NCBI RefSeq assembly: GCF_019263585.2
Contig: NZ_JADQDF010000001.1
Location: 620,001-684,000 of the forward strand
Origin: Pseudonocardia oceani
GTDB lineage: Bacteria > Actinomycetota > Actinomycetes > Mycobacteriales > Pseudonocardiaceae
Length of the DNA stretch: 64,000 nucleotides
Direction: 5' to 3'
This document shows positions 11,702-31,250 of this stretch, piece after piece. The translations under genes and the position numbers were made by a program. The notes below the pieces were generated by a model. The model saw nothing but the letters and a program-made list of their open reading frames with translations, did no database searches and was not told the origin of the DNA. How positions within the stretch are numbered: position 1 is the first letter of the stretch; each line of letters opens with the position of its first letter.

Positions 11702-11773
11702 GGGCGATTAGCTCAGTGGGAGAGCGCTTCCTTGACACGGAAGAGGTCACAAGTTCAATCCTTGTATCGCCCA
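11702..11773 (+). tRNA. tRNA-Val (anticodon GAC), target of integration
   Basis: The gene starts GGGCGATTAGCTCAG and ends ATCGCCC plus discriminator A, followed by an encoded CCA at 11774-11776. The anticodon loop TTGACAC lies between CTTCC and GGAAG. Its 3' half is part of a 63-bp sequence repeated exactly at 26267-26329, so the gene is the integration site of the downstream island and its 3' end has been restored by the element. Confidence 0.96.
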
Positions 11774-11793
11774 CCACGTAAGGCCTGGTCAGA
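11731..11793. repeat. att site 1 (63-bp direct repeat, tRNA-Val 3' end)
   Basis: The 63 bp from the anticodon loop through the tRNA 3' end and on into ...GGTCAGA are identical to 26267-26329. The integrase gene lies immediately inside the repeat. This is the left boundary of the 14.5-kb island. Confidence 0.9.
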
Positions 11794-11822
11794 GCCCCAG
11801 CTGGGGATCCTGCCCAGGCCTT
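11780..11822. terminator. Nested hairpin between tRNA-Val and the convergent integrase gene
   Basis: AAGGCCTGG at 11780-11788 pairs with CCAGGCCTT at 11814-11822. Inside it, CCCCAGCTGGGG at 11795-11806 is a perfect palindrome. It covers the end of the integrase gene and follows the tRNA cluster, so it probably terminates both. Related hairpins follow att copies 2 and 3. Confidence 0.6.
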
Positions 11823-13000
11823 CTTGGCGTTCTGGGCGGGGTTGAGTAACTACGTGAGTAACTATCTCGGCGACGGCCCGGGAAGACGCGGTTCATGGCC
11901 GTCGCGCCCTCCTCGATGAACGGCCGGAGCTGCTTGCGGTAGACGGACTCGGTCACCTTTGAGCCGCCGGTGTGACCGATCAGCCGGGCGATCTCCTCGA
12001 TCGGCACTCCCCCGTCCGACAGGAGCGACACGAAGCTGTGGCGCAGTTCTCGCGGCGACCACCGACGGTCGTCCAGACCTGCCGCCACCGCGACGCGCTG
12101 GAAATCACGGCGCACGTTCGCCGCGTCCATCGCCGTCCCGGCCTCGGTCGCGAAGACCAGATCGCGGTCGGTCCACCGTTCTCCCGCCGCTGCGCGCGCG
12201 ATCCGCTGCCGGTCTCGGTGCTCCTCCAACGCCTCGACGCAACGCTCCGGCAACGCGAGGTTCCGCCGCGAACCCCGTGTCTTCGTGTCACCGCCGGCGC
12301 GCACCGAACGCCAGACCCGCACGTTCGGCGGAACCGGCGGGACGCCGTCCGGATCGCCTACCAGGTCGACGTGCTCCCACGTCAGCGCCCGCAGCTCCTC
12401 GGTGCGGGCACCGGTCAGCAACGACACGACCACGTAGGCGCCCATCGTGGTCGCCGGCGCGGCCTCGAGCAGCGCCTGCGCCTGGTCGAACGTCATCGCC
12501 TGCGACGGCCGCCCGCCCAGCCCGGTCGGGGTGCCGCACAGCAGCATCACGTTGCGCTTCACCTTGTCCCGCGCCTGCGCCCGGGTGATCGACCGGGACA
12601 GGATCGACTTGATCCGCGACACCGTGCTCGTGCTCAGCTCGCGCGCCTTCTCCGCCAGCCAGCGGTCGACGTCCTCCGCCGACAGCTCACGCAGCTTCCG
12701 TCGGCCCAGCGCCGGGACGACGTGACGCAGCGCGAGGTCGCGCAGGGTCTGCACCGTGCTCGGGTCCCGCCCGCCGAGCCCGTGGTCGGGCCAGTCCTGC
12801 ACCGCCCGTTGCACGGTGTAGCTCTGCGCGGCGATCAGGACGCCGTCGTCGTGGTCGCGGACGAGCTCCTTGAGCCGGTTGCGCGCCTCGGTCCGGGTGC
12901 GTCCGCTGGCCTTGCCGACGATGCGCTTGCCGGAGGGCGTGTGACCCCACGGTGATGGTCGCGACCCATCGCTGTCGTGCCTCGTCGTAGTGCAGGCCAC
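11789..13000 (-). CDS. Tyrosine integrase of the catabolic island, N-terminus frameshifted
   Basis: The frame encodes 403 aa with a complete catalytic domain: the arginine in LLTGARTEELRALTW, SPRELRHSFVSLLSDGG, LIGHTGGSKVTESVYR with the tyrosine nucleophile. The natural N-terminus is in another frame, however: from ATG 13028 the sequence reads MTARRSRGDGGLHYDEARQ up to ATITVG, and the reading then has to shift at the CCCC run 12945-12948 to continue as HTPSGKR. The GTG at 12998-13000 would give an artificial N-terminus of about 18 residues. The same shift is present in copy 2. The gene sits against att1 and should have integrated the island into tRNA-Val(GAC). Activity is uncertain. Confidence 0.8.
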   Translation of the reverse strand: MACTTTRHDSDGSRPSPWGHTPSGKRIVGKASGRTRTEARNRLKELVRDHDDGVLIAAQSYTVQRAVQDWPDHGLGGRDPSTVQTLRDLALRHVVPALGRRKLRELSAEDVDRWLAEKARELSTSTVSRIKSILSRSITRAQARDKVKRNVMLLCGTPTGLGGRPSQAMTFDQAQALLEAAPATTMGAYVVVSLLTGARTEELRALTWEHVDLVGDPDGVPPVPPNVRVWRSVRAGGDTKTRGSRRNLALPERCVEALEEHRDRQRIARAAAGERWTDRDLVFATEAGTAMDAANVRRDFQRVAVAAGLDDRRWSPRELRHSFVSLLSDGGVPIEEIARLIGHTGGSKVTESVYRKQLRPFIEEGATAMNRVFPGRRRDSYSRSYSTPPRTPRRPGQDPQLGL

Positions 13001-13011
13001 CGTCGCCGCGG

Positions 13012-13257
13012 CTACGCCGCGCCGTCATCGGCTTGCCGCACCAGCAAAGCGACGTACTCGGCGATCGCGGCGGCGGGGATGAGCCCGGGCCGGCCCTGGG
13101 TCACCGAGCGCAGCCGGCCCGAGCGGATCAGCTCGTAGATCACCGAACGGCTCAACGACAGCAGCCGCATCGCCTCGGGAACGCGGTACAGCTGCACCGT
13201 CTGGTCGCCGCCCTCGTGCTCCTCGTTCCACATCTCTGCCTCCTTCGACCGATCCAC
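13012..13257 (-). CDS. Excisionase-like HTH protein of the island
   Basis: This 81-aa protein has the excisionase-type helix-turn-helix LYRVPEAMRLLSLSRSVIYELIRSGRLRSV and the wing ending ...AAAIAEYVALLV. ATG 13257 gives the full length; the internal ATG of MWNEEHEGG is an alternative start. Its 3' end overlaps the natural integrase start (ATG 13028) by 17 bp. A near-identical but frameshifted copy lies at 27211-27455. Confidence 0.82.
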   Translation of the reverse strand: MDRSKEAEMWNEEHEGGDQTVQLYRVPEAMRLLSLSRSVIYELIRSGRLRSVTQGRPGLIPAAAIAEYVALLVRQADDGAA

Positions 13258-13264
13258 GGGAGGC

Positions 13265-14197
13265 CCACGGTGACGATCCGCGTGACGCGCTCCGTTGCCG
13301 CTGCCAGCCCGGCTTGCTCATGTCGACCCAGTCCTGCGGCGTCTCGCGGTTCCCGCGGTACCCGACGCTCGACGGAGTCCGCTGGAACACGATCACCTGC
13401 TTCGCCGTCTTCGCGAGCTCCGGCACGACCTGGACGGCGGTGGCGCCGGTACCGATGATCCCGACGCGCTTGTCGGCCAGGCCCGTCATCGGGCGGTCGA
13501 AGGCGCCGCCGGTGTAGGCGTAGTCCCACCTGCTCGTGTGGAAGGTGTGCGGGCGGAAACGGTCGATGCCCGGCAGGTTCGGCAGCTTCGGCAGGCTCTG
13601 CCGGCCACAGGCCAGAACGAGGTAGTCCGACGTCAGCTCGTCGCCGCGGTCCGTGCGGACGTGCCACCGACCGTCGGCCTTGTTCCATGCGGCACCTGTG
13701 ATCGCGGTCTGGAACAGGGCGCGGTCGTACAGGCCGTAGGCCTGACCTATGCGCCGGCTGTGCTCCAGCATCTCCGGGGCGTAGGAGTAGCGCGTCCGGG
13801 GTGCGTAGTCGAGCTCCTCCAGCAGGGGGAGGTAGACGTGCGCCTCGATGTCGCACATGGCTCCCGGATAGCGGTTCCAGTACCACGTACCGCCGAAGTC
13901 ACCACCGACCTCGACGACGCGGACGTCCGACACACCTGCTTCACGCAGCCGCGCGCCCTGGAGGAGTCCGCCGAATCCACCGCCGGCCACGATGACGGTC
14001 GTGTACTCGCGAAGAGGCTCCCGCCGAACGTCGGGATCGACACACGGGTCCTTGCGGAAGCGAGCGAACCTTCCGCCGGCGCGGGCGTACCGGCGCCGCC
14101 CGTCGACGCGGAGGCGGCGGGCGCGCTCCTCCTCGTACCTGCGCTTGAGCTCAGCTGGATCGAAGTCCAGCGTCCCCTCGATCACGTCAGCAGACAC
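13265..14197 (-). pseudogene. Truncated Baeyer-Villiger monooxygenase (5' part only)
   Basis: From GTG 14197 (preceded by GGGAGGGG) about 310 codons of a BVMO are intact. They include the FAD-binding VAGGGFGGL, GGTWYWNRYPGAMCD, the fingerprint-like FHTSRWDY and the NADPH-binding IGTGATAVQVVPEL. The similarity stops after DMSKPGWQRQR, exactly where sequence shared with the second integrase module begins, so roughly the C-terminal half of a ~600-aa enzyme is missing. The frame stays open through the excisionase gene, but that part is not BVMO sequence. Recombination involving the int-xis module probably cut the gene. Confidence 0.85.
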
Positions 14198-14520
14198 GCG
14201 CCGCCCCTCCCTCGAACCACCGTCGGGTACGTGCACTCGGCAGCGCCCCCTGTCTGCAGCCAGTGAACCGAGCGCTCCGCCCTGCGCGAAGGGACAGCGG
14301 TCGCGGAGGGGCGAGACAAATGTCGTGGGTGCGCCCGCCTTCGCAGGCCGCGCCGAGGATCGCCCGTCCCGCCGGCAGCGCCGTCGATCGGCGGATCAAC
14401 TAGTATTCGCTGTGCCAGGCGGTCTGGCGTCCTCACCACGGATTCACGAGCTTCATGGATCGATCCGTGGATCAGGACGAGGGTCGCCTGGGGATGATCG
14501 AGGCCGTCAGAGGAGGTCGT
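14198..14520. promoter_or_regulatory. Divergent promoter region between truncated BVMO and tetR gene
   Basis: This 323-bp intergenic stretch should hold both promoters. GATTCACGAG at 14441-14450 resembles the inverted form of the operator found at 20717-20738 (9 of 12 core positions). A perfect palindrome GGATCGATCC lies at 14457-14466. GACAAATGTC near 14318 is another small inverted repeat. TetR autoregulation here is plausible but inferred. Confidence 0.45.
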
Positions 14521-15228
14521 ATGGCTCGCGATCCGGGCGCTCCCGCCCGACGACGCGGCAGCGCGTCAACACGAGCCGCCGCAGCGAAGAGTCCGCTCGC
14601 AGCCGCTGCCAGCAGCAGCCCCGCGACGGTGCGCGGCCGCAAGACGCGTGCCGCCCTGGTCAGCGCGGCGCGTGAGGTGTTCGAGGAGCTCGGGTATCGG
14701 GATGCCCGTCTGTCCGACATCGCGGCGCGGGCCGGCACGTCCTACGGGGTCTTCTACCACTACTTCGAGTCGAAGGAGTCGATCCTCGACGAGTTGTTCA
14801 CCGCCGTCACCGGCGAGATGTACAACGCGTCGCAGGCGGCCACGAGCCACGCCACCGATCCGGTCGACAAGATCCGCGCCGCGAACCGTGAGTACCTCGT
14901 GGTCGCGGCGCGCAACGCCCGGTTGATCGCCATGATCGAGGAGCTGGCCTACCGCGACCCGCGGTTCCGCGAGCTCAAGCTGCGCATCCGGGAACCGTTC
15001 CTCCGCCGGAACGAGGCCGGCATCCGCAGCCTCCAGAAGCGCGGCCTGGCCGACCCGGCGCTCGACGCGCCCACGGCCGCGTCCCTGCTCGGCGGGATGA
15101 TCGAGAACTTCACCATGCTGTGGTTCGTGCACGGCATCGAGTACGACGAGGACGTCGCAGTGGAGACGCTGTCGAGGCTGTGGGCCCAGGCCATCGGTCT
15201 CCGCGTGCAGCCCGCCATCGAGGACTGA
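14521..15228 (+). CDS. TetR-family transcriptional regulator
   Basis: The protein has 235 aa from ATG 14521, which follows GAGGAGG. After a low-complexity Ala/Ser/Arg N-terminal tail, the TetR DNA-binding domain spans about residues 41-90: RAALVSAAREVFEELGYRD, then DIAARAGTSYGVFYHYFESK. The C-terminal ligand domain is helical. It is divergent from the truncated BVMO and convergent with the atuA/carboxylase operon. It is the only regulator in the catabolic island and so the natural candidate for the GACT-N4-RRTC operators. An earlier ATG at 14494 has no good ribosome binding site. Confidence 0.88.
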   Translation: MARDPGAPARRRGSASTRAAAAKSPLAAAASSSPATVRGRKTRAALVSAAREVFEELGYRDARLSDIAARAGTSYGVFYHYFESKESILDELFTAVTGEMYNASQAATSHATDPVDKIRAANREYLVVAARNARLIAMIEELAYRDPRFRELKLRIREPFLRRNEAGIRSLQKRGLADPALDAPTAASLLGGMIENFTMLWFVHGIEYDEDVAVETLSRLWAQAIGLRVQPAIED

Positions 15229-15255
15229 GCAGGTCCATCCTGCGCGATCCGGGGT

Positions 15256-17037
15256 TCATCCGTCGCGGGCGGGCAGCAGCACCGTCGGGATGTCGACGTG
15301 CTTGGCGCGCAGGTACTCGCCCAGACCCTTGCCCTGGGAGTCCAGGTGCGGGTTCGCCGCGACGCCCCGACCGAGCAGACCCACGACCGTGACGCCGCAC
15401 GCGCGCAGCAGCGGAAGCTCCCACAGGCGCAGCTCGCAGCCTTCGGCCTCAGGGATGAGGGTGCGCAGTCGGTCCTCGCCCCACCACGACCGCAACCACG
15501 CGTGCGTCGCGTCGTCGCGGGCCCAGACGCCCAGGGTCGCGTTGCCCGCCTTGTCCCCGGAGCGGGACCCGAGCACGGTGCCGAGCGGAGCGCGGGACGT
15601 CGGTCCGGAGGGCACCGGAGCACCGGGCGGCGTCGCGTCCGGGGCCGGGGCCGGGTGCGCCGCCACGCTCGTGGCGGCCGGCGTGGTCTCCCAGCTGTCC
15701 ACCCCGAGCGTGACCCGCTGCGTGAGGCGTTCGGCGGGCAGCAGCGTCGGCCAGAACACGCTGATCTCGGCGCCGGCGCCGGGAGGTCCGGTGAAGTACA
15801 GGCCCGGGTAGGTCGCAAGGCCGAGCTCCACGGCATGCCGGGAGAACGACGCCACCCGAGCGCGGTCCGGTCCGACCACGGTGACGGTCAGCAGCGCGAC
15901 GGCCTCGGCCATGGTGGCCGGGTCGGGCCGGTCGGCCCGCAGCAGGCGGACGGTGACGTCGTCGAACGACTCCTCGCCGCCGGGCACCGCGGCCCAGAGC
16001 GCCGCCCGGGCCAGCTCCGCCTTGGCCTCGATCCCGGTGCCCGTGAGGACGAACGTCGTCTCGTTGCGCCAACCGCCGCTCACCAGTGCTCCGACCTTGA
16101 CCGTCGGCGGTGCGGGCTCGCCACGGGCCCCGGAGATCCGGACCCGGTCCTCGCCCTCCTGTTCGAGGCGAACGGTGTCGAGCCGGGTGACCACGTCGGG
16201 GTTGAGGTAGCGCGGCCCGTCGACCTCGTAGAGCAGCTGGGCCGTGACCGTCTCCACGGTGACGGCGCCGCCCGTACCCGGATGCTTGGTGATCACCGCG
16301 GATCCGTCGGAGGCGATCTCCGCGATCGGGAACCCGGCCCGGGCCATGTCGGGGACCTCGTGGAAGAAGGAGAAGTTGCCCCCGGTCGCCTGCGCGCCGC
16401 ACTCGATGACGTGGCCTGCGGCGACAGCACCGGCCAGTGCGTCCCAGTCGTCGCGGGCCCACCCGAAGTGCCACGCCGCGGGCCCCAGGATGACGGCGGC
16501 GTCGGTGACCCGCCCGGTGACCACGACGTCCGCGCCCGCGCCGAGGGCCTCGGTTATCCCCCAGCCGCCCAGGTAGGCGCTGACCACCTCGGGCTCGCGT
16601 CCCGTCGTGGCGAACGGTCGGCCGGTGTCGAGGTGCGGGGCGGTCCACCCGGCGGCCCGTTCGCGGGCGAACGCCTCGGTGGCGTCGTCGCCGTCGACGA
16701 CGGCGACCCGCACGGTGCGGCCGAGGCGCTCGGCGACGGCGGCCACCTCGGCCGCGCAGCCGTGGGGGTTCAGTCCACCCGCGTTGGACACCACCTTGAT
16801 GCCCCGGTCGAGGCAGTCGCCCAGCACGTCGGCCATCTGGCTCACGAAGGTCCGCGCGTACCCGGCGCCGGGGTCGCGGCGGCGCTGCTTGACCAGCAGG
16901 CCCATCGTCAGCTCGGCCAACCAGTCGCCGGTCAGGACGTCGATGGGCCCGCCGTCGACCATCTCCCGCGCAGCGGAGAGCCGGTCTCCGAAGAAGCCGG
17001 AGCAGTTGGCGACGCGCAGCGCCCGCGGCCCGGTCAT
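15256..17037 (-). CDS. AtuA-family protein (DUF1446), acyclic terpene utilisation type
   Basis: The 593-aa protein begins ALRVANCSGFFGDRL and continues with DVLTGDWLAELTMG, VVSNAGGLNPHGCA and the GWARDDWDALAGAV region of DUF1446/AtuA proteins. It ends in the extra C-terminal domain with GSRSGDKAGNATLGVWA (about residues 480-590). AtuA is needed for citronellol/geraniol breakdown in Pseudomonas, where it accompanies geranyl-CoA carboxylase; its chemistry is not settled. ATG 17037 lies in an ATGA overlap with the carboxylase gene, which fixes the start. Confidence 0.88.
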   Translation of the reverse strand: MTGPRALRVANCSGFFGDRLSAAREMVDGGPIDVLTGDWLAELTMGLLVKQRRRDPGAGYARTFVSQMADVLGDCLDRGIKVVSNAGGLNPHGCAAEVAAVAERLGRTVRVAVVDGDDATEAFARERAAGWTAPHLDTGRPFATTGREPEVVSAYLGGWGITEALGAGADVVVTGRVTDAAVILGPAAWHFGWARDDWDALAGAVAAGHVIECGAQATGGNFSFFHEVPDMARAGFPIAEIASDGSAVITKHPGTGGAVTVETVTAQLLYEVDGPRYLNPDVVTRLDTVRLEQEGEDRVRISGARGEPAPPTVKVGALVSGGWRNETTFVLTGTGIEAKAELARAALWAAVPGGEESFDDVTVRLLRADRPDPATMAEAVALLTVTVVGPDRARVASFSRHAVELGLATYPGLYFTGPPGAGAEISVFWPTLLPAERLTQRVTLGVDSWETTPAATSVAAHPAPAPDATPPGAPVPSGPTSRAPLGTVLGSRSGDKAGNATLGVWARDDATHAWLRSWWGEDRLRTLIPEAEGCELRLWELPLLRACGVTVVGLLGRGVAANPHLDSQGKGLGEYLRAKHVDIPTVLLPARDG

Positions 17038-19043
17038 GACAGGGTGCCCTCCACCGGCGCGATGGCGACGAGCAGCGTGCCGGCCTGGACGAACCGGCCC
17101 ACCTCGACGTGGATCTCGTCGACGACGCCGTCGACGGCGGCGACCGCCGGATGCTCCATCTTCATGGCCTCCACCACGACGAGCGTCTGGCCCGCAGCCA
17201 CGCGCTCCCCCACCGCAACCTGGACGGCGACGACGGTGCCCGGCATCGCACTGACCGGACCGGTCGCCGCGGCACTCCCGGCGCCGGCCTCGGGCAGGCG
17301 CGGCCGTGGGTGCCAGCCGGACTGCGCGCGGGGATCGTTGACCCACACGGAGCCGTCGGGGTGCGCGGCGACCGTGCACGGGACGTCCACGCCCTCGTGC
17401 CGGACCCGTACGGCGTCCGGCCCGAGCCGGAGCAGCGTGAACTCGTGCCGCACCCCGTCGGTCACGAGGACCATGTCGGTGTCGCCGTGCCCGCTCCCGA
17501 GCCGGTAGCCGACGAGCACGGGCTCGCCGCCCACCGGCGCCCATTCCGCCGTGGTCAGCAGGTCGGCGATCAGCGGCCGGAACCCGGGAGGCGCGTGACC
17601 ACCGACGAGGTCGTCGGCGCGCCGGCGGGCCACGGACACCGCGATCGCAGCGGCCAGGTGCACCACGGGCGGAGTCGCGGGCGAGGGGTCGAGCAGCTGC
17701 GGGTGGAGGTCGAGGAAGTCGGTGCGGGTCTCCCCCGCCAGGAAGTCCCGATCGCGCAGCAGGGCGGCGAGGAACTCGCGGTTGGTCGTGATGCCGTGCA
17801 CCTGGACGGCGTCGAGCGCCGCGGCGAGCTGCCCGGCGGCCTCCGCGCGGGTGTCGCCGCGAGCGATGATCTTGGCGAGCATCGGGTCGTAGAACGCCGA
17901 GACCTCACCCGACGCCGCGACACCGTCCTCGTACCGCAGGCCGGGCCGGGGTTGGTGGGCGTACCGGTGCAGGGTGCCGGGGGTGGGCAGGTAGTCCCGC
18001 GCCGGGTCCTCGGCGTAGAGCCGCACCTCGATGGCGTGTCCCCGTGGGACGACGTCCGCCTGCTCGATGCCGATGGCCTCGCCCTGCGCCACCCGCAGCT
18101 GCAGCGCGACCAGGTCCACGCCGGTGACCTCCTCGGTCACCGGGTGCTCGACCTGCAGTCGCGTGTTCATCTCCAGGAAGTAGAACTCACCGCTGCGGTC
18201 GTCGAGGAGGTACTCGACGGTGCCGGCGCCGAGGTAGCCCAGCTCGCGGACGAGGGACACCGACGTCGTCCCCATGCGCTCCCGCAAGTGGGGGCTCACC
18301 ACCGGTGACGGCGCCTCCTCGAGCACCTTCTGGTGGCGCCGCTGCACCGAGCACTCCCGCTCACCCAGGTGGATCGCGTTGCCGTGGGTGTCCCCGAAGA
18401 CCTGGATCTCGACGTGCCGCGCCGCGTCGAGGTAGCGCTCGAGGAAGACCGTCGGGTTGCCGAAGGAGCTCCCGGCCTCGCGACGGGCGCCCGCGACGGC
18501 GTCGACGAGCCCGTCGGCGGTGCGGACCAGCCGCATCCCCTTGCCGCCTCCACCGGCGACCGCCTTCACCAGCAGTGGGAACCCGACGCCCTCGGCCTCC
18601 GCCAGCCACTCCTGCTGGTCGTCGCCGTCCAGCCGGGCGTCGGGCAGGACCGGGACCCCGGCCTTGCGGGCGATCTCCTTCGCCCTGTCCTTGAGCCCCA
18701 TGTCGCGCATCGACTCCGGCCCGGGCCCGACGAACAGCACCCCGGCGTGCGCGCACGCCTCCGCGAACCCGGCGTTCTCGGACAGGAACCCGTAGCCGGG
18801 GTGCAGCGCGTCCGCACCGCTGCGCCGAGCCGCGTCGAGGATCTTCTCGCCGTCCAGGTAGGACTGCGCGCTCGTCGTACCGCCGATGCCCACCGCCGCA
18901 TCGGCGTCGAGGACGTGCGGAGAACGGGCATCGGGCTCGGAGTAGACGGCCACCGTGCGGATGCCTATGGCACGGGCCGTGCGGATGACCCGTCGGGCGA
19001 TCTCGCCGCGGTTGGCCACCAGGAGCGTGCTGATCCGGGTCAC
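17034..19043 (-). CDS. Acyl-CoA carboxylase biotin-carboxylase/BCCP subunit (geranyl- or methylcrotonyl-CoA type)
   Basis: The 669-aa protein starts at GTG 19043 (VTRISTLLVANRGEIARRV), 8 bp after the carboxyltransferase stop and behind GAGGA. It has the biotin-carboxylase fold: LHPGYGFLSENAGFAEAC, the ATP-grasp glycine loop KAVAGGGGKGMRLV, FLEMNTRLQVEHPVTE. A C-terminal biotin-carrier domain has the biotinylation motif VVEAMKMEHP. This subunit carboxylates biotin with ATP and bicarbonate and passes it to the carboxyltransferase next door. Substrate choice between geranyl-CoA, 3-methylcrotonyl-CoA and related enoyl-CoAs cannot be read from sequence. The AtuA neighbour favours an isoprenoid acyl-CoA. 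Confidence 0.92.
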   Translation of the reverse strand: MTRISTLLVANRGEIARRVIRTARAIGIRTVAVYSEPDARSPHVLDADAAVGIGGTTSAQSYLDGEKILDAARRSGADALHPGYGFLSENAGFAEACAHAGVLFVGPGPESMRDMGLKDRAKEIARKAGVPVLPDARLDGDDQQEWLAEAEGVGFPLLVKAVAGGGGKGMRLVRTADGLVDAVAGARREAGSSFGNPTVFLERYLDAARHVEIQVFGDTHGNAIHLGERECSVQRRHQKVLEEAPSPVVSPHLRERMGTTSVSLVRELGYLGAGTVEYLLDDRSGEFYFLEMNTRLQVEHPVTEEVTGVDLVALQLRVAQGEAIGIEQADVVPRGHAIEVRLYAEDPARDYLPTPGTLHRYAHQPRPGLRYEDGVAASGEVSAFYDPMLAKIIARGDTRAEAAGQLAAALDAVQVHGITTNREFLAALLRDRDFLAGETRTDFLDLHPQLLDPSPATPPVVHLAAAIAVSVARRRADDLVGGHAPPGFRPLIADLLTTAEWAPVGGEPVLVGYRLGSGHGDTDMVLVTDGVRHEFTLLRLGPDAVRVRHEGVDVPCTVAAHPDGSVWVNDPRAQSGWHPRPRLPEAGAGSAAATGPVSAMPGTVVAVQVAVGERVAAGQTLVVVEAMKMEHPAVAAVDGVVDEIHVEVGRFVQAGTLLVAIAPVEGTLS

Positions 19044-19051
19044 GGTCGTCC

Positions 19052-20662: not shown

Positions 20663-20716
20663 CCCATCTCGTCCGGGCCTCGCGGCCGGCGGGGCCACTC
20701 CTGATGAAACCAACTT

Positions 20717-20738
20717 TCGACTCATGAATCAACTCTTG
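20717..20738. promoter_or_regulatory. Operator-like site A (GACT-N4-RRTC)
   Basis: The core GACTCATGAATC followed by AACTCTTG lies between the divergent carboxylase and esterase genes. The core and its flanks recur upstream of the BVMO operon at 25754-25775 and 25840-25861. It is an imperfect inverted repeat of a size suited to a TetR dimer. The assignment to the island TetR protein is inferred. Confidence 0.6.
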
Positions 20739-20905
20739 AGCGAGGAGATTTTCGCCCTGTGCCGGGTCTTGCCGGCTGTGCAGCCCTGGCGCAGCCTGTG
20801 CAGAGGGAGAGAAAATTGACCGGTGAGTCGAGATGGTGTTGTCTGTTACGGCGCCTCCGCACGAGCCTGATCGAGGCGACCCCACTCGACGTCAAGGAGG
20901 ACGCA

Positions 20906-21817: not shown

Positions 21818-21826
21818 CGGACGCAA

Positions 21827-21875
21827 CGACGCCGAGAGGCGGGTCTCCGGTGCGGAGACCCGCCTCTCGGCGTCG
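21827..21875. terminator. Perfect 23-bp bidirectional terminator hairpin
   Basis: The arms 21827-21849 and 21853-21875 are exact reverse complements with a GTG loop. The hairpin lies between the convergent esterase and SnoaL-like genes and should stop transcription from both sides. Confidence 0.88.
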
Positions 21876-21907
21876 TCTGCGGTGCGTGACGGTCCGACGA
21901 GCCGTCG

Positions 21908-22318
21908 CTACTGCGCCTGGACCTGCTCGACGTAGGCCAGCACCTGGAACGGGTCCAGGGCCTCCTTGACGCTGAGCACCTTGCCGTCCTTGATCGTCCA
22001 CATCATCTGGTAGTTGTTGACGTACTCCGCGGAGCCCGGACCGATCCCGTGGGAGTTCGCCTCCACCGCCACCCGGTCGCCTTCGGCGGTCAGGCTCTTC
22101 ACGGTGAAGGAGAACTCGTCGAACGGCGTGAGGAAGCCGGTCAGCAGCTTGTAGGTCCCCTCCTTGTCGTTGGGGCCGCCGTACTCGAACCGGTCCTTGC
22201 GGTTGGGGAGTTCCCACGTCGCGTCCTCGGCGAGGACGTCCATGAGCGCGTCGAACTCCCTCTTGTCGATGTGCGAGCAGGCGCGCCGGACCAGTTCCTT
22301 GTTCGCTTCCGCGGACAT
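21908..22318 (-). CDS. SnoaL/NTF2-like protein
   Basis: The 136-aa protein has the cone-shaped NTF2 pattern: NKELVRRACSHIDKREFDALMDVLAEDATWELP, then a set of beta strands ending MMWTIKDGKVLSVKEALDPFQ. Family members are small ligand-binding proteins, isomerases or hydratases. ATG 22318 is preceded by GGAGTC. It is downstream of the ligase and BVMO genes in the same orientation, so a role in the same degradative pathway is likely but undefined. Confidence 0.82.
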   Translation of the reverse strand: MSAEANKELVRRACSHIDKREFDALMDVLAEDATWELPNRKDRFEYGGPNDKEGTYKLLTGFLTPFDEFSFTVKSLTAEGDRVAVEANSHGIGPGSAEYVNNYQMMWTIKDGKVLSVKEALDPFQVLAYVEQVQAQ

Positions 22319-22399
22319 GATGACTCCTCTTCGGACGGACGCCGCCTGGTGCGGACGTCGGTGATCGCACTCGAACGGGCTCGCGCCCGGCCGGGGGGC

Positions 22400-23986: not shown

Positions 23987-23996
23987 CGGGCGCCTC

Positions 23997-25661
23997 TCAA
24001 CCGACCTGGGCGGGCTCGGCGGAGCTCGACAGCACGAACCCGTCGAAGTCCTTCGCGACCACGCCGTCCAGCCACTGCGCGTAGGCGCCGGCCCCACCGA
24101 AGTAGAACAACGGGCTGCGGGGCTTGCCGGGGATGTTCGCCCCGAGGTACCAGCTGCCCACCTTCTCGCCCTGCGGGATGAGCGTCATGTGGAGCACCTC
24201 GTCGAGGTGCGCCTTCCACGCCGCGGCGGCCTCCGGCGTCGCCTCGATGCGGTCCAGGCCCTGCTCGCCCATCCGCTCGAGCGCCTGCCCGAGGGTCCAC
24301 ACGACCTTCTCCACGACGACCGGGATGTTGGCGTAGGCGCTCTGCGGCCCGCAGATGAAGAGGAGGTTCGGGAAGCCGGGGTTGGAGATCCCGAGGTAGG
24401 TCTGCGGCCCCTCGCGCCACTCGTCGGTCAGCCTGCGACCGTCCACACCCGCGATGTCGATCTTCTCCAGGGCGCCGGTCACGGCGTCGAAGCCGGTGGC
24501 GAACACCAGGACGTCCACCTGGTGCTCGGCCCCCGACGCGGTGCGCACCCCGCCGGGGACGATCTCGGCGATCGGGTCGGACAGGACGTCGACGAGCGTG
24601 ACGTCGTCGCGGTTGTAGGTCTCGTAGTAGCCGTGGCCCGCCGGCGGGCGCTTCGCGACGTAGGGGTAGCCCTTCGGGCACAGCAGCTCGGCCGTGACCG
24701 GGTCCTTCACGGTCTCGCGAATCTTGCCGCGGATGAACTCGGACGCGGCGTCGTTGGAGCGCTGGTCGATGAGGATGTCGTCGAAGGTCTCGAACACGTA
24801 GTGGAAACCTCCGTCGCGCCAGCCCTGCTCGAAGACCTGCTCGCGCTCCTCGTCGGTGACGTCGTCGTAGACCCGACCGGCCGGGCTCATCGGGAAGCCG
24901 AAGACGTGCGACTGCGCCTTCTGCCAGATCGCGGGGTAGTCGGCCTTGATCTGCGCGACCTGCTCCTCGCTCAGCGGGTGGTTCTGCGCGGGGACCACGA
25001 AGTTGGGCGTCCGCTGGAAGACGGTCAGGTGCGCCGCCTCCTCGGCGATGACGGGGATCGCCTGCACCGCACTGGCCCCTGCACCGATGACCCCGACCCG
25101 CTTCCCGGCGAAGTCCACCGGCTCCTTCGGCCAGTTGCCGGTCACGTACACCTCGCCGGCGAACGAGTCGATGCCCGCGAACTGCGGCTTGTGAGGCACG
25201 GACAGGTGGCCCAGCCCGGTGATGAAGTACGTGCACCGGAGCGTGTCACCGGTGTCGGTGCGGACGCTCCAGGTATTCGACCGGGCGTCGTAGGACGCCG
25301 ACTCGACCCGCGTGCTGAACCGGATGTTCTTGCGGAGGTCGAACTTGTCGGCCACGAACCGCTGGTAGTCGAGCACCTCCTGCTGCTTCGGGTAGCGCTC
25401 CTTCCACGTCCACTCCTCGAGGAGTTCCGGGAAGGACGAGAAGCAGTAGGACCAGCTCTCGCTGTCGGTTCGCGCGCCCGGGTACCTGTTCCAGTACCAC
25501 GTCCCACCGACGTCCGTTCCCGCTTCGACGGCGACGGCGGACAACCCGAGCCTGCGCAGCTCGATGAGCATGCGCAGCCCGGAGAACCCCGCTCCGACCA
25601 CGACGGCGTCGAAGTCGGTCCCGCTGTCGGTCCTGCCGGTGTCCGTCGTCTGCGTTGACAT
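23997..25661 (-). CDS. Baeyer-Villiger-type flavin monooxygenase
   Basis: The 554-aa protein has the first Rossmann motif VVGAGFSGL (22-29), the BVMO box GGTWYWNRYPGARTD, and the second Rossmann motif GVIGAGASAVQAIPVI. The family fingerprint FxGxxxHxxxWP appears at residues 167-178 as FAGEVYVTGNWP, with valine at the usual histidine position. BVMOs insert one oxygen next to a ketone carbonyl using NADPH and O2, giving an ester or lactone. The start is ATG 25661 behind GAGGAGGA. It is followed by the acyl-CoA synthetase gene 10 bp downstream and preceded by two operator-like sites. It is clearly different from the truncated BVMO at 13265. Confidence 0.9.
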   Translation of the reverse strand: MSTQTTDTGRTDSGTDFDAVVVGAGFSGLRMLIELRRLGLSAVAVEAGTDVGGTWYWNRYPGARTDSESWSYCFSSFPELLEEWTWKERYPKQQEVLDYQRFVADKFDLRKNIRFSTRVESASYDARSNTWSVRTDTGDTLRCTYFITGLGHLSVPHKPQFAGIDSFAGEVYVTGNWPKEPVDFAGKRVGVIGAGASAVQAIPVIAEEAAHLTVFQRTPNFVVPAQNHPLSEEQVAQIKADYPAIWQKAQSHVFGFPMSPAGRVYDDVTDEEREQVFEQGWRDGGFHYVFETFDDILIDQRSNDAASEFIRGKIRETVKDPVTAELLCPKGYPYVAKRPPAGHGYYETYNRDDVTLVDVLSDPIAEIVPGGVRTASGAEHQVDVLVFATGFDAVTGALEKIDIAGVDGRRLTDEWREGPQTYLGISNPGFPNLLFICGPQSAYANIPVVVEKVVWTLGQALERMGEQGLDRIEATPEAAAAWKAHLDEVLHMTLIPQGEKVGSWYLGANIPGKPRSPLFYFGGAGAYAQWLDGVVAKDFDGFVLSSSAEPAQVG

Positions 25662-25753
25662 CGGTCTCCTCCTCGGAGTTCGAGGTCGCCCGGCGGGCGC
25701 CGCGAAGAACTGGAACGCGTCCTGACCGCGACTCGCCCGCATCGTGGCGGTAC

Positions 25754-25775
25754 TCGACTCGTGGGTCAATGTTCG
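25754..25775. promoter_or_regulatory. Operator-like site B upstream of the BVMO operon
   Basis: The core GACTCGTGGGTC preceded by TC matches the site between the carboxylase and esterase genes at most core positions. It lies about 95 bp upstream of the BVMO start codon. Confidence 0.55.
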
Positions 25776-25839
25776 TGGGCCGTGAAAGGTGATCGAGCGC
25801 GTGTGCACCTCTGAAGCACTGGTGACATGGAACACCGAG

Positions 25840-25861
25840 TCGACTCGTCAGTCAACTCTTG
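25840..25861. promoter_or_regulatory. Operator-like site C upstream of the BVMO operon
   Basis: The core GACTCGTCAGTC is a perfect GACT-N4-AGTC inverted repeat and is followed by AACTCTTG exactly as in site A. It lies 86 bp upstream of site B, a spacing suited to cooperative repression. Confidence 0.6.
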
Positions 25862-26266
25862 CCCGGAATCTCGTTCTGCGTCTGCTCGTCGACCACGCCG
25901 GAGGCGACCCTCGTCGAGACCATGCGCGATCGCGACTCGATCGGCACGACACCGCGCAGACACGGACCGACCACAGGACCCGACAACACACTCCAGGTCG
26001 TGGTCCCGACGTGGTCCCCGGGATTCATGACCATGGCTCGCCGAGCACTCAGGCAGGACCGCCTGCCCGACGCCGCGCCGTCACAGCCACGCGCCGACCA
26101 CGGTTCGACCACGGCGAGCAAAGGCGCCACAGCGTCTGAAGATCAACATCTGGTTGACCGACTGGGTGACTACGGACCTGGATCCGGACGGATTTCCGGG
26201 GATGCCGGGGGACGTCGCGGCGCCCTGACCTGCACATACGCCCTTGAGGTGCACTCACACGACCTT
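25862..26266. other. Gene-free stretch before att2
   Basis: About 400 bp hold no convincing gene or hairpin. It joins the BVMO control region to the right-hand att repeat and is probably residual element DNA. Confidence 0.45.
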
Positions 26267-26329
26267 CTTGACACGGAAGAGGTCACAAGTTCAATCCTTG
26301 TATCGCCCACCACGTAAGGCCTGGTCAGA
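26267..26329. repeat. att site 2 (63-bp direct repeat of tRNA-Val 3' end)
   Basis: This is an exact copy of 11731-11793, starting at the anticodon loop of tRNA-Val(GAC). The 5' half of the tRNA is absent, so it is a duplicated attachment core and not a gene. It ends the catabolic island and starts a second, decayed element. Confidence 0.9.
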
Positions 26330-26358
26330 ACCCCATCTGGGGATCCTGCCCAGGCCTT
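26316..26358. terminator. Hairpin following att2 (copy of the att1 hairpin)
   Basis: AAGGCCTGG at 26316-26324 pairs with CCAGGCCTT at 26350-26358, with an inner CCCCATCTGGGG stem. It is the counterpart of 11780-11822 and ends the decayed second integrase gene. Confidence 0.5.
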
Positions 26359-27227
26359 CTTGGCGTTCTGGGCGGGATTGGGTAACTACGTGAGTCACTA
26401 TCCCGGCGTCGCCCCGGGAACACGCGGTTCGTGGCCGTCGCACCCTCCTCGATGACCGGCCGCAGCTGCTTGCGGTAGACCGACTCGGTCACCTTCGAGC
26501 CGCCCGTGTGCCCGATCAACCGGGCGATCTCCTCGACGGCACTCCCCCGTCCGACAGCAGCGACACGAAGCTGTGGCGCAGCTCCCGCGGTGACCACCGA
26601 CGGTCGTTCAGGCCGGCAGCGACGGCCACGCGCTGGAAGTCACGGCGCACGTCGGCGGCGGGCATCACCGTCCCCGCCTCGGCCGCGAAGACCAAGTCGC
26701 GGTCGGTCCACCGCTCTCCCGCCGCAGCTCGGGTGGCCACCTGCCGGTCGCGGTGCTCCTCCAACGCCTCCACGCAACGCGAGTGTCCGCCGCGAACCCC
26801 GTGTCAACGCCAGACCCGCACGTTCGGCGGAACCGGTGGGACGCCGTCCAGATCGCCAACCAGGTCGACGTGCTCCCACGTCAGCGCACGCATCTTGCGT
26901 CGGCCCAGCGCCGGGACGACGTGACGCAGCGCGAGGTCGCGCAGGGTCTGCACCGTGCTCGGGTCCCGCCCGCCGAGCCCGTGGTCGGGCCAGTCCTGCA
27001 CCGCCTGCTGCACGGTGTAGCTCTGCGCGGCGATCAGGACGCCGTCGTCGTGGTCGCGGACGAGCTCCTTGAGCCGGTTGCGCGCCTCGGTCCGGGTGCG
27101 TCCGCTGGCCTTGCCGACGATGCGCTTGCCGGAGGGCGTGTGACCCCACGGTGATGGTCGCGACCCATCGCTGTCGTGCCTCGTCGTAGTGCAGGCCACC
27201 GTCGCCGCGGCTACGCCGCGCCGTCAT
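26325..27227 (-). pseudogene. Decayed second copy of the island integrase
   Basis: The sequence parallels 11789-13028 closely. The ends are nearly identical, but about 110 codons around the core-binding/catalytic junction are deleted: VPALGRRK runs directly into RALTWEHVDLV. Further small indels follow near 26780-26810 and at 26536, the latter breaking the frame after LRHSFVSLLSDGG. It also carries the same CCCC frameshift (27144-27147) near the N-terminus as copy 1. The natural start would be ATG 27227. Confidence 0.88.
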
Positions 27228-27455
27228 CGGCTTGCCGCACCAGCAAAGCGACGTACTCGGCGATCGCGGCGGCGGGGATGAGCCGGGCCGGCCCTGGGTC
27301 ACCGAGCGCAGCCGGCCCGAGCGGATCAGCTCGTAGATCACCGAACGGCTCAACGACAGCAGCCGCATCGCCTCGGGAACGCGGTACAGCTGCACCGTCT
27401 GGTCGCCGCCCTCGTGCTCCTCGTTCCGCATCTCTGCCTCCTTCGACCGATCCAC
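27211..27455 (-). pseudogene. Frameshifted second copy of the excisionase-like gene
   Basis: The sequence is nearly identical to 13012-13257 but lacks one C in the run near 27284, so the frame changes after SVTQGRPG. The identity with copy 1 stops abruptly after the shared GATCCACGGGAGGC at about 27463, where unrelated sequence begins on each side. Confidence 0.85.
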
Positions 27456-27463
27456 GGGAGGCG

Positions 27464-27716
27464 TTGCCGCGCCGGCCCCGGTCGTCGAACTCGCCCGGTC
27501 CGGCGGCGATCGCCGGGGCGCGCAGCGCCCGGATCATCGGGCCCAGCTCGAGGTCGAACTCACCCGGACCGGTCTGCGCCGGCTGCCACCCCGTGTCCCG
27601 TCCGCCCCAGCTCGCGATCATCCGCGGCCACACGTGCTCCTGCGCCCGCCCCGGCCCCATCCGGTAGGGGAGACCAGCCCACCGACTCGCCTCCCGAGCA
27701 CCACCTTGGTGATCAT
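27464..27716 (-). pseudogene. Relaxase fragment
   Basis: From ATG 27716 the sequence reads MITKVVLGRRVGGLV, and after a frameshift near 27675 continues as MGPGRAQEHVWPRMIASW and TGPGEFDLELGPMIRALRA. This is the first ~70 residues of a relaxase related to the one at 2408-3880. The gene ends at the junction with the second excisionase copy. It shows that the second element was once mobilizable. Confidence 0.82.
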
Positions 27717-27899
27717 CGGCGGGCCTCGAACTCCGCTGCCGCCATCTCGATGACGGCCTCCTCGCTCGTGGTCCATCTCGAACCCGAGGAACGCCCCCGT
27801 TCCGCACTGACCACGCCCCTGAGCCGGCCGGAAGCATCGCTTCCGGCATATCTCGCTCTGCCTTGCTCTGCCCGCCGAGCGGCATCAGCGACTACCGCG

Positions 27900-28706
27900 T
27901 CAGCCGCCGCCGGGAACCTCGCCGGTGCTGGTGAGGTGGTCGGCGACGTCGCGCAGCTTGGTGTTGGTGGCCTGGCTCGCGCGGATCAGCAGCTGGAACG
28001 CCACCTCGCTGCTGATCTTGTAGCGTTCCATCAGGATGCCCTTGGCCTGGCCGATCAGGTCGCGCGACTCGAGGCCGCGGCTCAGCCGTTGGTGCTGTTC
28101 GGACCCGACGAGGGCGATCGCGGCGTGGCTGGCCAGGAGCAGGGCGATGTGCTCGGACTCGTCGTCGAAGCCGTGCGGGTCGTGGTTGTAGAGGTTGAGC
28201 GCGCCGAGGTTCTCGCCCTCGACGTAGAGCTGTACCGACATCATCGACCCGATGCCCAACTCCAGAGCCCGCCCGGTGAACTGCGGCCACCGGTCCTCCG
28301 TGCCCATGTCCGACAGCCGCATGGAGCGCTGGTTGTAGATGGTGCTCATGCACGGGCCCTGCCCGGTCTCGTACTGGGCCCGATCCACCCGCTGGGCCAG
28401 CTCGTCGGTGCACGCCGTCGTCTCGATCGTCGTACGCCGGGTCACCCGGCTGATGGCGGCGATCTGCGCCCCGGGCACGTTGTCGACCGCCGCTTGCACG
28501 ATGCCCGCCAAGGTGTCGTCCAGGGTGGGTTCCTGCTGCAGCTCCCGCGCCAGCTCGCTCAGGTGCACCGCGAGGTCGTCCGGGTGCAGGTGCTTGCCGG
28601 TGTCGCTGCTGGACGGGCGGCCGCGACCGTCGCTGCCGGATGAACCCGCCCGGTCGTCGGGGCGCCCGGAAGCACTGCTCACATGATGGGTGGTCGTCGT
28701 GCTCAC
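27900..28706 (-). CDS. GAF and ANTAR domain regulator
   Basis: From GTG 28706 the protein has 268 aa. After a Ser/Gly-rich tail there is a GAF domain (about 55-195: AISRVTRRTTIETTACTD, YETGQGPCMSTIYNQRSMRL, MMSVQLYVEGENLGALNLY). A C-terminal ANTAR domain follows (about 205-255: LIGQAKGILMERYKISSEVAFQLLIRASQ). ANTAR proteins bind paired RNA hexaloops and prevent transcription termination; the GAF domain supplies the signal. Targets are unknown. An earlier ATG 28754 is possible but has weaker coding character. Confidence 0.9.
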   Translation of the reverse strand: MSTTTTHHVSSASGRPDDRAGSSGSDGRGRPSSSDTGKHLHPDDLAVHLSELARELQQEPTLDDTLAGIVQAAVDNVPGAQIAAISRVTRRTTIETTACTDELAQRVDRAQYETGQGPCMSTIYNQRSMRLSDMGTEDRWPQFTGRALELGIGSMMSVQLYVEGENLGALNLYNHDPHGFDDESEHIALLLASHAAIALVGSEQHQRLSRGLESRDLIGQAKGILMERYKISSEVAFQLLIRASQATNTKLRDVADHLTSTGEVPGGG

Positions 28707-28893
28707 CTTCTTCTCCGTGCGGAACCCCGCCGTTGGACTCATACAGCCCATCACAGGTACCGCTGCGCCGGCGAGGCTGGTAGACAGGCGGTGCTTGGTG
28801 CTGGTCTTGATGACCCAGGATTGCGATCAAGCGCGACACAGCGAGGCCGTCGTGCGCCACACCACCGATCCCCGGTACCCCCCGGGAGACCAT

Positions 28894-29239
28894 ATGCGCC
28901 GCATCAGCGTCCAGATCGCCTTTCCGCGTCCCGCCGTGAGGCTGGTGTGCGTCGCTGGTGAGGTGGACATGGCGACTGCACCGGTCCTGCGCGAGGCGTG
29001 CACCCGCGACCTCCGCGGTCGGCCGCCGGTGCGCGATCTGGTGGTCGACCTGAGCCGGGTGGGGTTTCCTGGCCTCCGCCGGGCTCCACGTCCTGCTCGA
29101 GTGCCACGCGCAGTTCGCCACCGTCGGCCTGGTCGCGCAGCATCCACCGGTCGCCGTGCCGCTGCGGATCACGGGCCTGGACGGGGTGCTCTCCCTGCAC
29201 GCCTGCCTCGCCGACGCGCTGCGCGTCCTCGATGAGTGA
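28894..29239 (+). pseudogene. STAS-domain anti-sigma factor antagonist, frameshifted
   Basis: ATG 28894 starts a STAS domain (VRLVCVAGEVDMATAPVLREA, VRDLVVDLSRVGF). One extra T near 29068 then shifts the frame. In the restored frame it continues FLASAGLHVLLECHAQF and ends ADALRVLDE at 29239. It lacks the expected serine context DxSG (LASAG is present). It is either inactivated or carries a sequencing error. It is divergent from the GAF-ANTAR gene. Confidence 0.75.
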
Positions 29240-29462
29240 GCAGCGCCTGGAGGTGAGCGCCTCTGGCCATCTGGCGCGGGTGCGGGCGCACCGGGTCGTG
29301 CTGTGCGCCGAACTGGACGCGGTCCGCCGGCGGACGGTGCAGATGCGGGAGGACGACCGAGCGCGCCGACAGCGGATGCGCAGCGCCAGGAGCTGGTACC
29401 GGAAGCCCGGCTCGCCACCAGCGATCACGGAGCCCGCCCCGTACCGTCGTCCGGAGGGGTAG
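29232..29462 (+). CDS. Small hypothetical protein
   Basis: A 76-aa frame starts at ATG 29232, overlapping the end of the STAS gene (ATGAGTGA). It is basic, with a likely helix HLARVRAHRVVLCAELDAVRRRTV followed by an Arg-rich stretch. I recognise no family. The overlap supports coupling, but codon evidence is weak because the region is decayed. Confidence 0.4.
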   Translation: MSEQRLEVSASGHLARVRAHRVVLCAELDAVRRRTVQMREDDRARRQRMRSARSWYRKPGSPPAITEPAPYRRPEG

Positions 29463-29639
29463 ACGTCCGCCGCGCGCCGTGCACCCCAGGTCCGGCCGTT
29501 GAACACACCTTCGGCCGGACCGCCGGACTGCGACTCGCCCTGCCCGGCTGCTGAGCGGGATCACCCTGGCCGACAGCGACGCAGGATCGGCGGATCACCC
29601 GGTCGGCATGGGGATTGCGGGCGGTGGTCCACCCGGGCC

Positions 29640-29985
29640 TTGCAGTAGAGGGCTTCGACCAGGTCCTCGACCTTGCGAGTGGACACGCCGCGCAGATGGG
29701 ACTCCATCACCACCGCGAACAGGGCCTGCTCGACCGGCGCGCCGCTCGAGCAGCGACGGGGAGACCGAGCCGGTGCGCAGCTTCGGGATCCGCGACGCCG
29801 CATCCCGCCGTCGTGGACAGGATGCGGACGCGGTGCCCGTTGCGCTGGGCGGTGCGTTCCGCGGAACGCTCGTGAGGGCCGGCACCGATCGCGTCGGTGA
29901 GCTCGGCCACGATCAACGCCTGGATAGGTACGCCGAACGGGCCGGGAGTTACACCACCAGCGGAGACGTGACCTCGGCCGGATGA
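29640..29985 (-). mobile_element. IS256-family transposase relic
   Basis: Pieces of an IS256/Mutator-type transposase lie on the minus strand in several frames: ELTDAIGAGPHERSAERTAQRNGHR, IPKLRTGSVSPSLLERR, and ALFAVVMESHLRGVSTRKVEDLVEAL. At least two frameshifts separate them, and neither the catalytic C-terminus nor inverted terminal repeats are visible, so it is a dead fragment. Confidence 0.85.
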
Positions 29986-30239
29986 GTCGCTCGGTGATCG
30001 GGACGCTGCCCGAACGGGCAGCCGCCACCGAGACTGATCCACCGACCTGTCGACTCACGACCTCGACGCACTGCGCGCTGTCCAACACCGTCTCAACCAC
30101 CGCCCACGCAACACTGACGGGTGGCGAACACCCGCCGAACCGTGGGGGCCTGATGGCGCCATGATCCGGTCATCGCCGCGGCGGTTCCCGAATCCAGCTT
30201 GAAACCCGCGGTCCTCGGACGGGTCGCACCTTCACACCC

Positions 30240-30515
30240 TTAGCTGCTGGAACGCAGGCAGAGATCTTTACCCTCGACGGCATAGCCCTCGGTTCCGTTC
30301 GGGCAGTTGTCGATGTCATCGACGGTGCTGACCACAGCTCGTCCGCTGTCGCAATCGACCTCAGTGATCCTGGCCGTCGCGCCGCCCTGGTTCGCGACCG
30401 AGACGCAGTCGCCGCGCTCGATCCCGCCACCATCGCTGAACAGCAACGCCGCGAGGGCGCCGCCCGCGACCAGGATGCCGGGCAGGATCAAGCGGCTGGG
30501 GGACTTGGGATTCAA
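30240..30515 (-). CDS. Small membrane-anchored LppU/SCO3897-like protein
   Basis: The 91-aa protein has an N-terminal membrane segment (LILPGILVAGGALAALLF) and a short exported domain with three cysteines (GDCVSVANQ, VDCDSGRAVVSTV, LCLRSS). The pattern fits LppU/SCO3897-type secreted proteins, whose function is unknown. The N-terminus MNPKSPSR supports the ATG 30515 start, with GGAGATC in front of it. Confidence 0.72.
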   Translation of the reverse strand: MNPKSPSRLILPGILVAGGALAALLFSDGGGIERGDCVSVANQGGATARITEVDCDSGRAVVSTVDDIDNCPNGTEGYAVEGKDLCLRSSS

Positions 30516-30820
30516 CGTCGATCTCCTTGCAGTGCTGGGGGCTTGCGTGTACGTCGAGCCGCGGTCGATCTCCGTTACCCGGCCCTCGGCACGAGTCAGC
30601 CATACCTCGTCATGACGCGGTCACCTCGTCGATGTCGCCGTCGAAGTCGGGTCACACCGTCACCGAAACGCCGTCGTCACAGCGCGGGCGACGGGCCCGG
30701 TTCAGACGACGCTCAGCGCCGCACCGGACATACCTCCCCATGTTGCGATGCGCGTCCCGGCGTCCATTCGCCCGGATCGTCGGCGGCCTCGCGCTGCTGG
30801 TCGCGGCGTTGGTGGTCCAG

Positions 30821-30849
30821 CGCCCACCACGTAGGCCTGGTCAGAGCCC
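30821..30849. repeat. att site 3 (partial, diverged)
   Basis: CGCCCACCACGTA-GGCCTGGTC and the following AGAGCCC match the tRNA 3' end and downstream part of att1 with a single-base gap. The downstream hairpin arms (CCTGGTC and GACCAGG) and the ...TTCTTGG.CTTCTGGGCGG sequence also correspond to att1. The anticodon half of the core is missing. Confidence 0.75.
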
Positions 30850-30980
30850 AATCGGAGGATTCGGACCAGGTCTTCTTGGCCTTCTGGGCGGCGCTGAGGG
30901 CGGAGTTCGCGCGGTAACCACCGCCGGTCGTCCAGACCTGCTGCGGCGGCCACACGCCGGAAGACCGCCGCCGGTTGCCG
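30850..30980 (-). pseudogene. Third integrase scrap
   Basis: On the minus strand the segment reads VFRRVAAAAGLDDRRWLPREL, matching FQRVAVAAGLDDRRWSPREL of the integrase at 11789. It then jumps to a C-terminal-like tail (RRPEGQEDL for RRPGQDPQL). Most of the gene is deleted. Its position next to att3 mirrors the two larger modules. Confidence 0.7.
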
Positions 30981-31250
30981 CACGGAGCCCGGGCTGCTGC
31001 TGCTCGACGTCCTGCGCCGCGTGCACCGGGAGGCCGCCGACCGCAGCTCGACCGGTTCGCGATGCGCGACACGCCGACCGGCGACATACTCGTCCCGCGG
31101 CTTCAGCCACGTGGCCGCGAGGAGAGTCATGACCCACCGGCTCCGTCGATGCGCAACGCCCGCCCGCGGTGCGCGATCAGTCGCGCCCACGTCCGATGAG
31201 CACGTGTTCCACGCGCCCTCCGGACTCCGCCCGTCGTCCCGGGAAGGCCG

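Follow-up and report, generated by a model that had tools for sequence, protein, structure and literature searches.

Probable tandem accretion of integrative elements at tRNA-Val(GAC) in Pseudonocardia oceani, with apparently mosaic integrase modules

In Pseudonocardia oceani the 3′ end of a tRNA-Val(GAC) gene recurs downstream, each time joined to a piece of the same tyrosine integrase gene (int), which raises the question of whether integrative elements arrived there repeatedly or a single module was multiplied in place. The question was addressed in a stretch of 64,000 nt (the window; contig C3, positions 620001-684000) of a 6.8-Mb, three-contig genome assembly (G000), and coordinates below are window positions. 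The three module copies of the window are denoted M1, M2, and M3 (copies 1, 2, and 3), whereas modules of relatives carry genome labels (G063A and G063B for the first and second modules of G063; G005a, G005b, G009a, and G009b for those of G005 and G009). The array very probably arose by tandem accretion of integrative elements at the end of this tRNA gene: the copies share attachment (att) cores, the ends of unit 1 match those of related elements, both C-terminal halves of int have been under selection, and relatives retain intact versions.

Target-end repeats and elements at tRNA-Val(GAC)

The 63-bp att core at 11731 is repeated exactly at 26267 and partially at 30821, as proposed in the initial annotation and confirmed by repeat comparison and shuffling; a 43-bp piece of its tRNA part has two matches in the window, compared with a mean of 0.00 in 100 shuffles. 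The target end is thus found at the unit boundaries, with 63 bp in copies 1 and 2 and 9 bp of the tRNA (30821-30829) plus the hairpin remaining in copy 3. Folding and BLAST also bore out the hairpin and the integrase piece following each copy. The three hairpins have free energies of -31.7, -31.6, and -25.7 kcal/mol (z-scores of -3.1, -4.2, and -2.3). The repeat of copy 3 is 83% identical over 30833-30898 and 84.8% (E 3e-18) over 30821-30898, followed by a 64-bp integrase scrap at 81%; all identities for this copy are BLAST values, since MAFFT positioned it badly. Chance repetition or misassembly is a scarcely credible source of the three modules. The assembly does contain near-identical stretches 14.2 kb apart, but no shuffle of 100 yielded a match, the 11% difference between the C-terminal integrase halves makes the copies distinguishable, and independent double copies occur in G005 and G063.

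The 46 bp of the tRNA end are the shared target. The DNA beyond them was compared in 26 sequences, in four of which (G014, G001, G002, and G027) the tRNA was chosen with 10 mismatches and is perhaps a non-orthologous copy. Only four others (G009, G007, G006, and G024) begin like the window just past the tRNA, and therefore the 17 bp past the tRNA and the hairpin are probably element-derived. Part of the hairpin may be of host origin, since GGCCTGGTCAGA is present a few bases further on in G012, G004, and G011. A hairpin lies within 65 nt past the tRNA in all 26 genomes (perfect stem of 8-18 bp, minimum free energy of -26 to -45 kcal/mol, values that have no shuffled control), and the element thus seems to supply a terminator for the tRNA.

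Unit 1 (11731-26266; 14,536 bp between the first two att copies) ends in a right arm of its own. Its positions 26140-26251 are identical to the right end of the G063 element at 100 of 112 sites, and its right end matches that of G005 at 40 of 51 sites, both exceeding the best of 100 shuffles. The units differ in content, and their integrase genes have diverged in the att-proximal 467 bp, hereafter the C-half, with 51 differences in 462 sites between copies 1 and 2 (89.0% identity). These differences fall on 31 of 150 third, 14 of 148 first, and 6 of 149 second codon positions (P 2e-5 for the third-position bias), with dS of 0.354 and dN/dS of 0.16. In the codon-position analysis the rows of G009a, G009b, and M3 at 12699-12940 (at most 24 columns each) were unused. 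The low dN/dS and the third-position bias argue that both int lineages were selected as working integrases and are not decaying duplicates. For scale, when this genome is compared with G009 or G005, four flanking genes have dS values of 0.23 to 0.55, and the C-half value lies within this range. The proposed repeated insertion at tRNA-Val(GAC) is upheld by the differing content, the C-half dN/dS, the right arm resembling those of G063 and G005, and the single-element form in G063; the block formed by the N-terminal integrase half (N-half) and the excisionase gene xis is the exception to separate arrivals.

Among 62 genomes of the genus, including G000, the junction between tRNA tail and element was found in 8, and twice in 3 of them (G000, G005, and G063). 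G063, the closest relative found, carries the single-element version sought: the tRNA is followed by int (412 aa), xis (81 aa), and a relaxase gene (532 aa, PF03432), all uninterrupted, and then by a GAF-ANTAR gene and segment S (Table 1), beyond which come a right arm and another att with a scrap of int; unit-1 cargo is missing between its xis and relaxase genes. The site is accordingly occupied by one intact element plus a scrap in G063, and in G033 only 2.4 kb separate the tRNA from the P450 flank. In G005, two modules are joined to the same core, with uninterrupted int and xis and a PF03432 relaxase gene; its contigs C49 and C66 were placed as neighbours on the basis of G007. The nearest named integrase relative is that of Pseudonocardia hydrocarbonoxydans NBRC 14498 (89%).

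An apparent mosaic across the integrase gene

Copies 1 and 2 differ at 2 of 302 sites in the N-half and 2 of 262 in xis (approximately 99% identity), and the change point between M1 and M2 separates 58 differences in 631 sites from 5 in 564, a step matched in none of 1000 permutations. Compared with either copy, G063A is 85-86% identical in the C-half and 97-99% in the N-half and xis, with a similar change-point step, and the C-halves of M1, M2, and G063A are 85-89% alike in every pair. The modules look like mosaics, formed most simply via recombination between modules inside arrays. Rate heterogeneity as the source of the step is disfavoured, since the comparison of M1 with G005a has its strongest change point at 13199, outside int.

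Both window copies also share a frame break near 12.95 kb, beyond which the N-terminal end of the family in copy 1 continues in another frame to 13028. The break is absent from all seven relatives in the alignment, G063A included; one of the seven, G026, has a different break. The N-half block was therefore one sequence after the break, barring systematic sequencing error. The copies had been described as progressively worse, from nearly intact to a scrap. This holds for copy 2, which is frameshifted and lacks 11, 25, and 300 bp relative to int 1, besides 1-bp gaps, and for copy 3, a scrap; copy 1 is "nearly intact" only loosely, as it shares the frameshift with copy 2. A clean age series of one decaying element is not supported, given the shared frameshift, the 99% identity of the N-half and xis compared with 89% in the C-half, and the closeness of copy 3 to G063B. 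The idea that the oldest copy is the most decayed was rejected as a sufficient account, because of the shared frameshift and the 99% block of copies 1 and 2.

Over two short stretches, copy 3 is 91.5 and 89.0% identical to G063B, 91.0 and 80.8% to G063A, and 84.8 and 81.3% to copy 1, and over these stretches it appears most like the second module of G063. These data bear on in-place duplication, by which one int/xis module was doubled by unequal recombination and its copies decayed, with no repeated arrivals. At least the 99% identical N-half/xis block with its common frameshift was copied within the lineage, which speaks for this explanation; nonetheless we consider it very unlikely, because the C-halves differ by 11% under strong codon-position constraint, the cargo of the units differs, unit 1 has its own right arm, and copy 3 is closer to a G063 module than to copy 1.

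Tree topologies agree in part with the mosaic. In the N-half tree M1 and M2 are firmly joined (97/93) within a clade with G063A (98/99). In the first module trees, built without G063, one clade of M1 and the proximal module of G009 was rejected (p 0.024), and the corresponding clade with M2 gave p 0.056. A one-way conversion of copy 2 by copy 1 was unsupported after G063 was added: of the seven listed differences between the M1 and M2 blocks, two of which hinge on the alignment of an indel, G063A has the copy 2 state at four, the copy 1 state at one, and neither state at two.

Another route concerns unit 1 only and is compatible with accretion, namely its entry by a Campbell-type RecA single crossover, in which a circular element recombined through its int/xis block with a resident module, instead of Int-mediated entry at the tRNA. 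Such a crossover leaves a hybrid module on either side, the nearly identical stretch of approximately 565 bp is a natural site for it, int 1 is now frameshifted, and G063 has the resident arrangement without unit 1. We find it rather doubtful, since alone it does not account for the likeness of the N-halves, so that a conversion tract is needed, and the 85-89% pairwise similarity of the M1, M2, and G063A C-halves makes no parent assignable.

Candidate arm-type integrase sites were found as pairs of 12-bp repeats 68-69 nt past the tRNA. At least 10 of 12 positions match at a lag of 12 in half of the modules (6/12: M1, G063A, G005a, G005b, G006, and G007), against a background of 71 of 63,976 window positions, with 50 positions tried per module. 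The repeats fall into a GTRACTA class (M1, G063A, G005a; partly M2, G007, and G009a) and a GGCCTAA-like class (G005b and G006; partly G063B). We tentatively suggest that the tRNA-Val site may act as an integrase-shuffling array, in which two arm-site classes stack on one core and recombination between neighbours rejoins an att-proximal catalytic int half with an N-domain/xis block, leaving one inactivating frameshift in two adjoining modules (concerted evolution).

For accretion itself, the following mechanism can be proposed. Each element would carry an attP core copying the tRNA end, a hairpin usable as the tRNA terminator, arm-type sites, int, and xis. Int, bound at the arm repeats, would recombine attP with the tRNA, leaving the tRNA whole and displacing older units outward. 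A mobilizable lifestyle, that of integrative and mobilizable elements (IMEs), is likely given the MobA/VirD2-type relaxase in the intact relatives G063 and G005. Unit 1 would be a derivative without the relaxase region, carrying catabolic-type cargo, and RecA-type recombination of adjoining modules would have put one int N-half/xis block, frameshift included, beside older C-halves.

Several observations weigh against accretion or its mosaic extension. Because the frameshift common to both copies falls within a short homopolymer, systematic sequencing error may account for it. In the later C-half tree, which includes G063 and uses other rows and columns and a shorter stretch, M1 and M2 are joined weakly (71/79, compared with 95/94 without G063), and without G063 the approximately unbiased test failed to reject a grouping of M1, M2, and M3 in one clade (p 0.132). 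M2, M3, G063B, G009a, G024, and G070 have a weak repeat pair or none, and no right arm scored above shuffles ahead of copy 3, the second scrap of G009, or the second att of G026. The copy 3 scrap lies to the left of segment S in the window (30821-36940) and to the right of it in G063; thus, array order differs between the two. Finally, without a relaxase, Rep, or transfer gene in the 11 open reading frames (ORFs) scanned, unit 1 counts as mobilizable by ancestry.

Unit contents and the surrounding island

The features of the array are listed in Table 1.

Table 1. Features of the tRNA-Val(GAC) array and adjoining island in the window.
Feature	Positions	Strand	Basis
tRNA-Val(GAC), integration target, whole beside the element end	11702-11776	+	ARAGORN
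att copy 1, 46 bp of tRNA 3′ end plus 17 bp beyond	11731-11793	+	sequence comparison
Terminator-like hairpin after att 1	11780-11822	+	folding
int copy 1, 403-aa ORF, tyrosine integrase	11789-13000	-	PF00589
Pair of 12-bp repeats of the GTRACTA class, putative left arm-type sites for integrase	11844-11867	+	sequence, putative function
xis copy 1, 81 aa, HTH_17/excisionase	13012-13257	-	Pfam
Flavin monooxygenase (FMO) gene without 3′ part, joined to xis upstream region (junction near 13300)	13300-14236	-	Pfam
Unit-1 cargo: TetR, AtuA-like, biotin carboxylase, carboxyltransferase, alpha/beta hydrolase, SnoaL-like, AMP-ligase, Baeyer-Villiger-type FMO	14455-25835		Pfam
Right arm of unit 1 with putative arm-type site	26140-26266	+	homology to G063 and G005 right ends
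att copy 2	26267-26329	+	exact 63-bp repeat of 11731-11793
int copy 2, a pseudogene damaged by deletions and frameshifts, 89% identical to copy 1 in the C-half	26325-27199	-	alignment
int N-half and frameshifted xis copy 2, ~99% identical to 12688-13263	26887-27461	-	alignment
Relaxase and adjoining remnants	27462-27875	-	homology to G063
Remnant of att/int (copy 3), retaining 9 bp of the tRNA end, the hairpin, and part of int	30821-30963	+	BLAST
Segment S, 92% in the G063 island, where it holds a SpoIIE/GAF regulator gene	30964-36940		
146-aa gene, no Pfam match	42298-42738	+	88-91% conserved in islands of G005, G007, G009, and G063

The gene content of unit 1 was assessed by a Pfam scan of 11 ORFs. 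Homology to the G063 module stops at 13299, and the cargo genes could form one catabolic pathway, judging by their families. No Rep, FtsK/TraB-type translocase, relaxase, or transfer gene was detected among the 11 ORFs scanned, the remaining ORFs of the unit being unscanned. The RepSA-type initiator and FtsK/TraB-type translocase that define actinomycete integrative and conjugative elements (AICEs) of the pSAM2 type are therefore not seen in these ORFs. With respect to the definition of IMEs, copy 1 has its own int and xis, although int is frameshifted, and both genes are uninterrupted in G063 and G005; the relaxase is missing from the scanned ORFs of unit 1, present as a remnant in unit 2, and represented by a PF03432 gene in G063 and G005. 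Unit 1 retains xis and the frameshifted int, whereas cis-mobilizable elements (CIMEs) keep att and have lost integration and transfer genes. In G012 and G028, related integrases have RepSA and FtsK-type genes as neighbours (the G028 FtsK match being below the Pfam cut-off), and the integration module is therefore common to AICE-like and relaxase-type elements. At the same tRNA, the island of G070 (L130, approximately 7-12 kb from tRNA-Val) contains carboxylase and AtuA-like DNA, 64-67% identical and in another order. The G+C content is 70-71% in units 1 and 2 (11731-30820), compared with approximately 75% deeper in the island, and the left flank is also at 71%.

Units 2 and 3 are decayed. The reported link of copy 2 to a relaxase fragment is genuine: positions 27462-27761 are 86% identical to part of the intact G063 relaxase ORF, the following 27760-27875 are 90% identical to G063, and 27500-27715 are 75% identical to the G005 relaxase.

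The array of three modules is real, but it is only part of a larger structure. Besides the 146-aa gene, the first longer DNA in common with the G009 and G005 flank starts at 88,097, and the modules are therefore the proximal part of an island of approximately 76 kb. Parts of this island, e.g., 48-62 kb, are 87-94% alike in G063. No further att/int copies were found between 31 and 158 kb with seven module queries. The right flank, with metallophosphatase and P450 genes, lies downstream of this tRNA in many relatives; the P450 family occurs within 20 kb of the tRNA in 14 of 26 (several of the stretches being short), and 137 kb from it in G000. In this genome another ~44 kb (C3:710561-754894) interrupts the right flank, where G009 has approximately 1.5 kb and G005 0.6 kb. 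The 146-aa gene, which we take to be HNH-like, lies approximately 1.2 kb from a relaxase gene in G007. The islands of G005 and G007 (L076 5945-16608 and L077 1-10673) have 10.7 kb in common at 99.8% identity, while the DNA beside the tRNA is approximately 80% alike, and this common segment suggests a recent transfer.

Beyond tRNA-Val(CAC) (8724-8796), the window contains, at 2408-6650, genes for a PF03432 relaxase, a NikA-like protein, and a tyrosine integrase of another kind, and positions 1-4881 are 86% identical in G063; a second element may occupy this neighbouring tRNA. As to a plasmid form, all 44 matched plasmid records were below 60% identity, the best (59.4%) being a Nonomuraea record of 11.9 Mb.

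Relation to known tandem arrays

The locus is a readable case, with one intact and several degraded relatives, of relaxase-type elements stacking at one tRNA with catabolic-type genes and of integrase-part exchange in a soil actinobacterium. If the mosaic reading is true, the locus could serve as a natural test of the idea that integrases are diversified by residence in arrays as well as by transfer. In the partly covered literature on Pseudonocardia tRNA islands and on gene conversion with tandem integrases, no title or abstract opening dealt with this site.

Stacking at a tRNA is already known in kind. Two reports describe tandem accretion of AICEs at tRNA-Lys of Frankia and tRNA-Arg of Streptomyces avermitilis (PMC3218068) and, at a tRNA-Arg site in Streptomyces, a remnant that has no traB (PMC9513070). 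These arrays resemble the present one in having successive elements at one tRNA, flanked by the same direct repeats, and decay; they are of the TraB type, whereas the relaxase of G063 and G005 is of the MobA/VirD2 type, and the 11 scanned ORFs of unit 1 contained neither. A three-step accretion model with IMEs and CIMEs is outlined in a review (PMC5704250, citing Pavlovic, 2004), and by its terms unit 1, which retains xis and a frameshifted int, is no plain CIME. In SXT/R391 arrays, according to PMC2786100, adjoining elements were shown experimentally to recombine into mosaics, mainly via RecA. The mosaic described here is deduced from sequence alone and, unlike those hybrids, crosses the integrase gene itself, which is the more unusual part of this locus.

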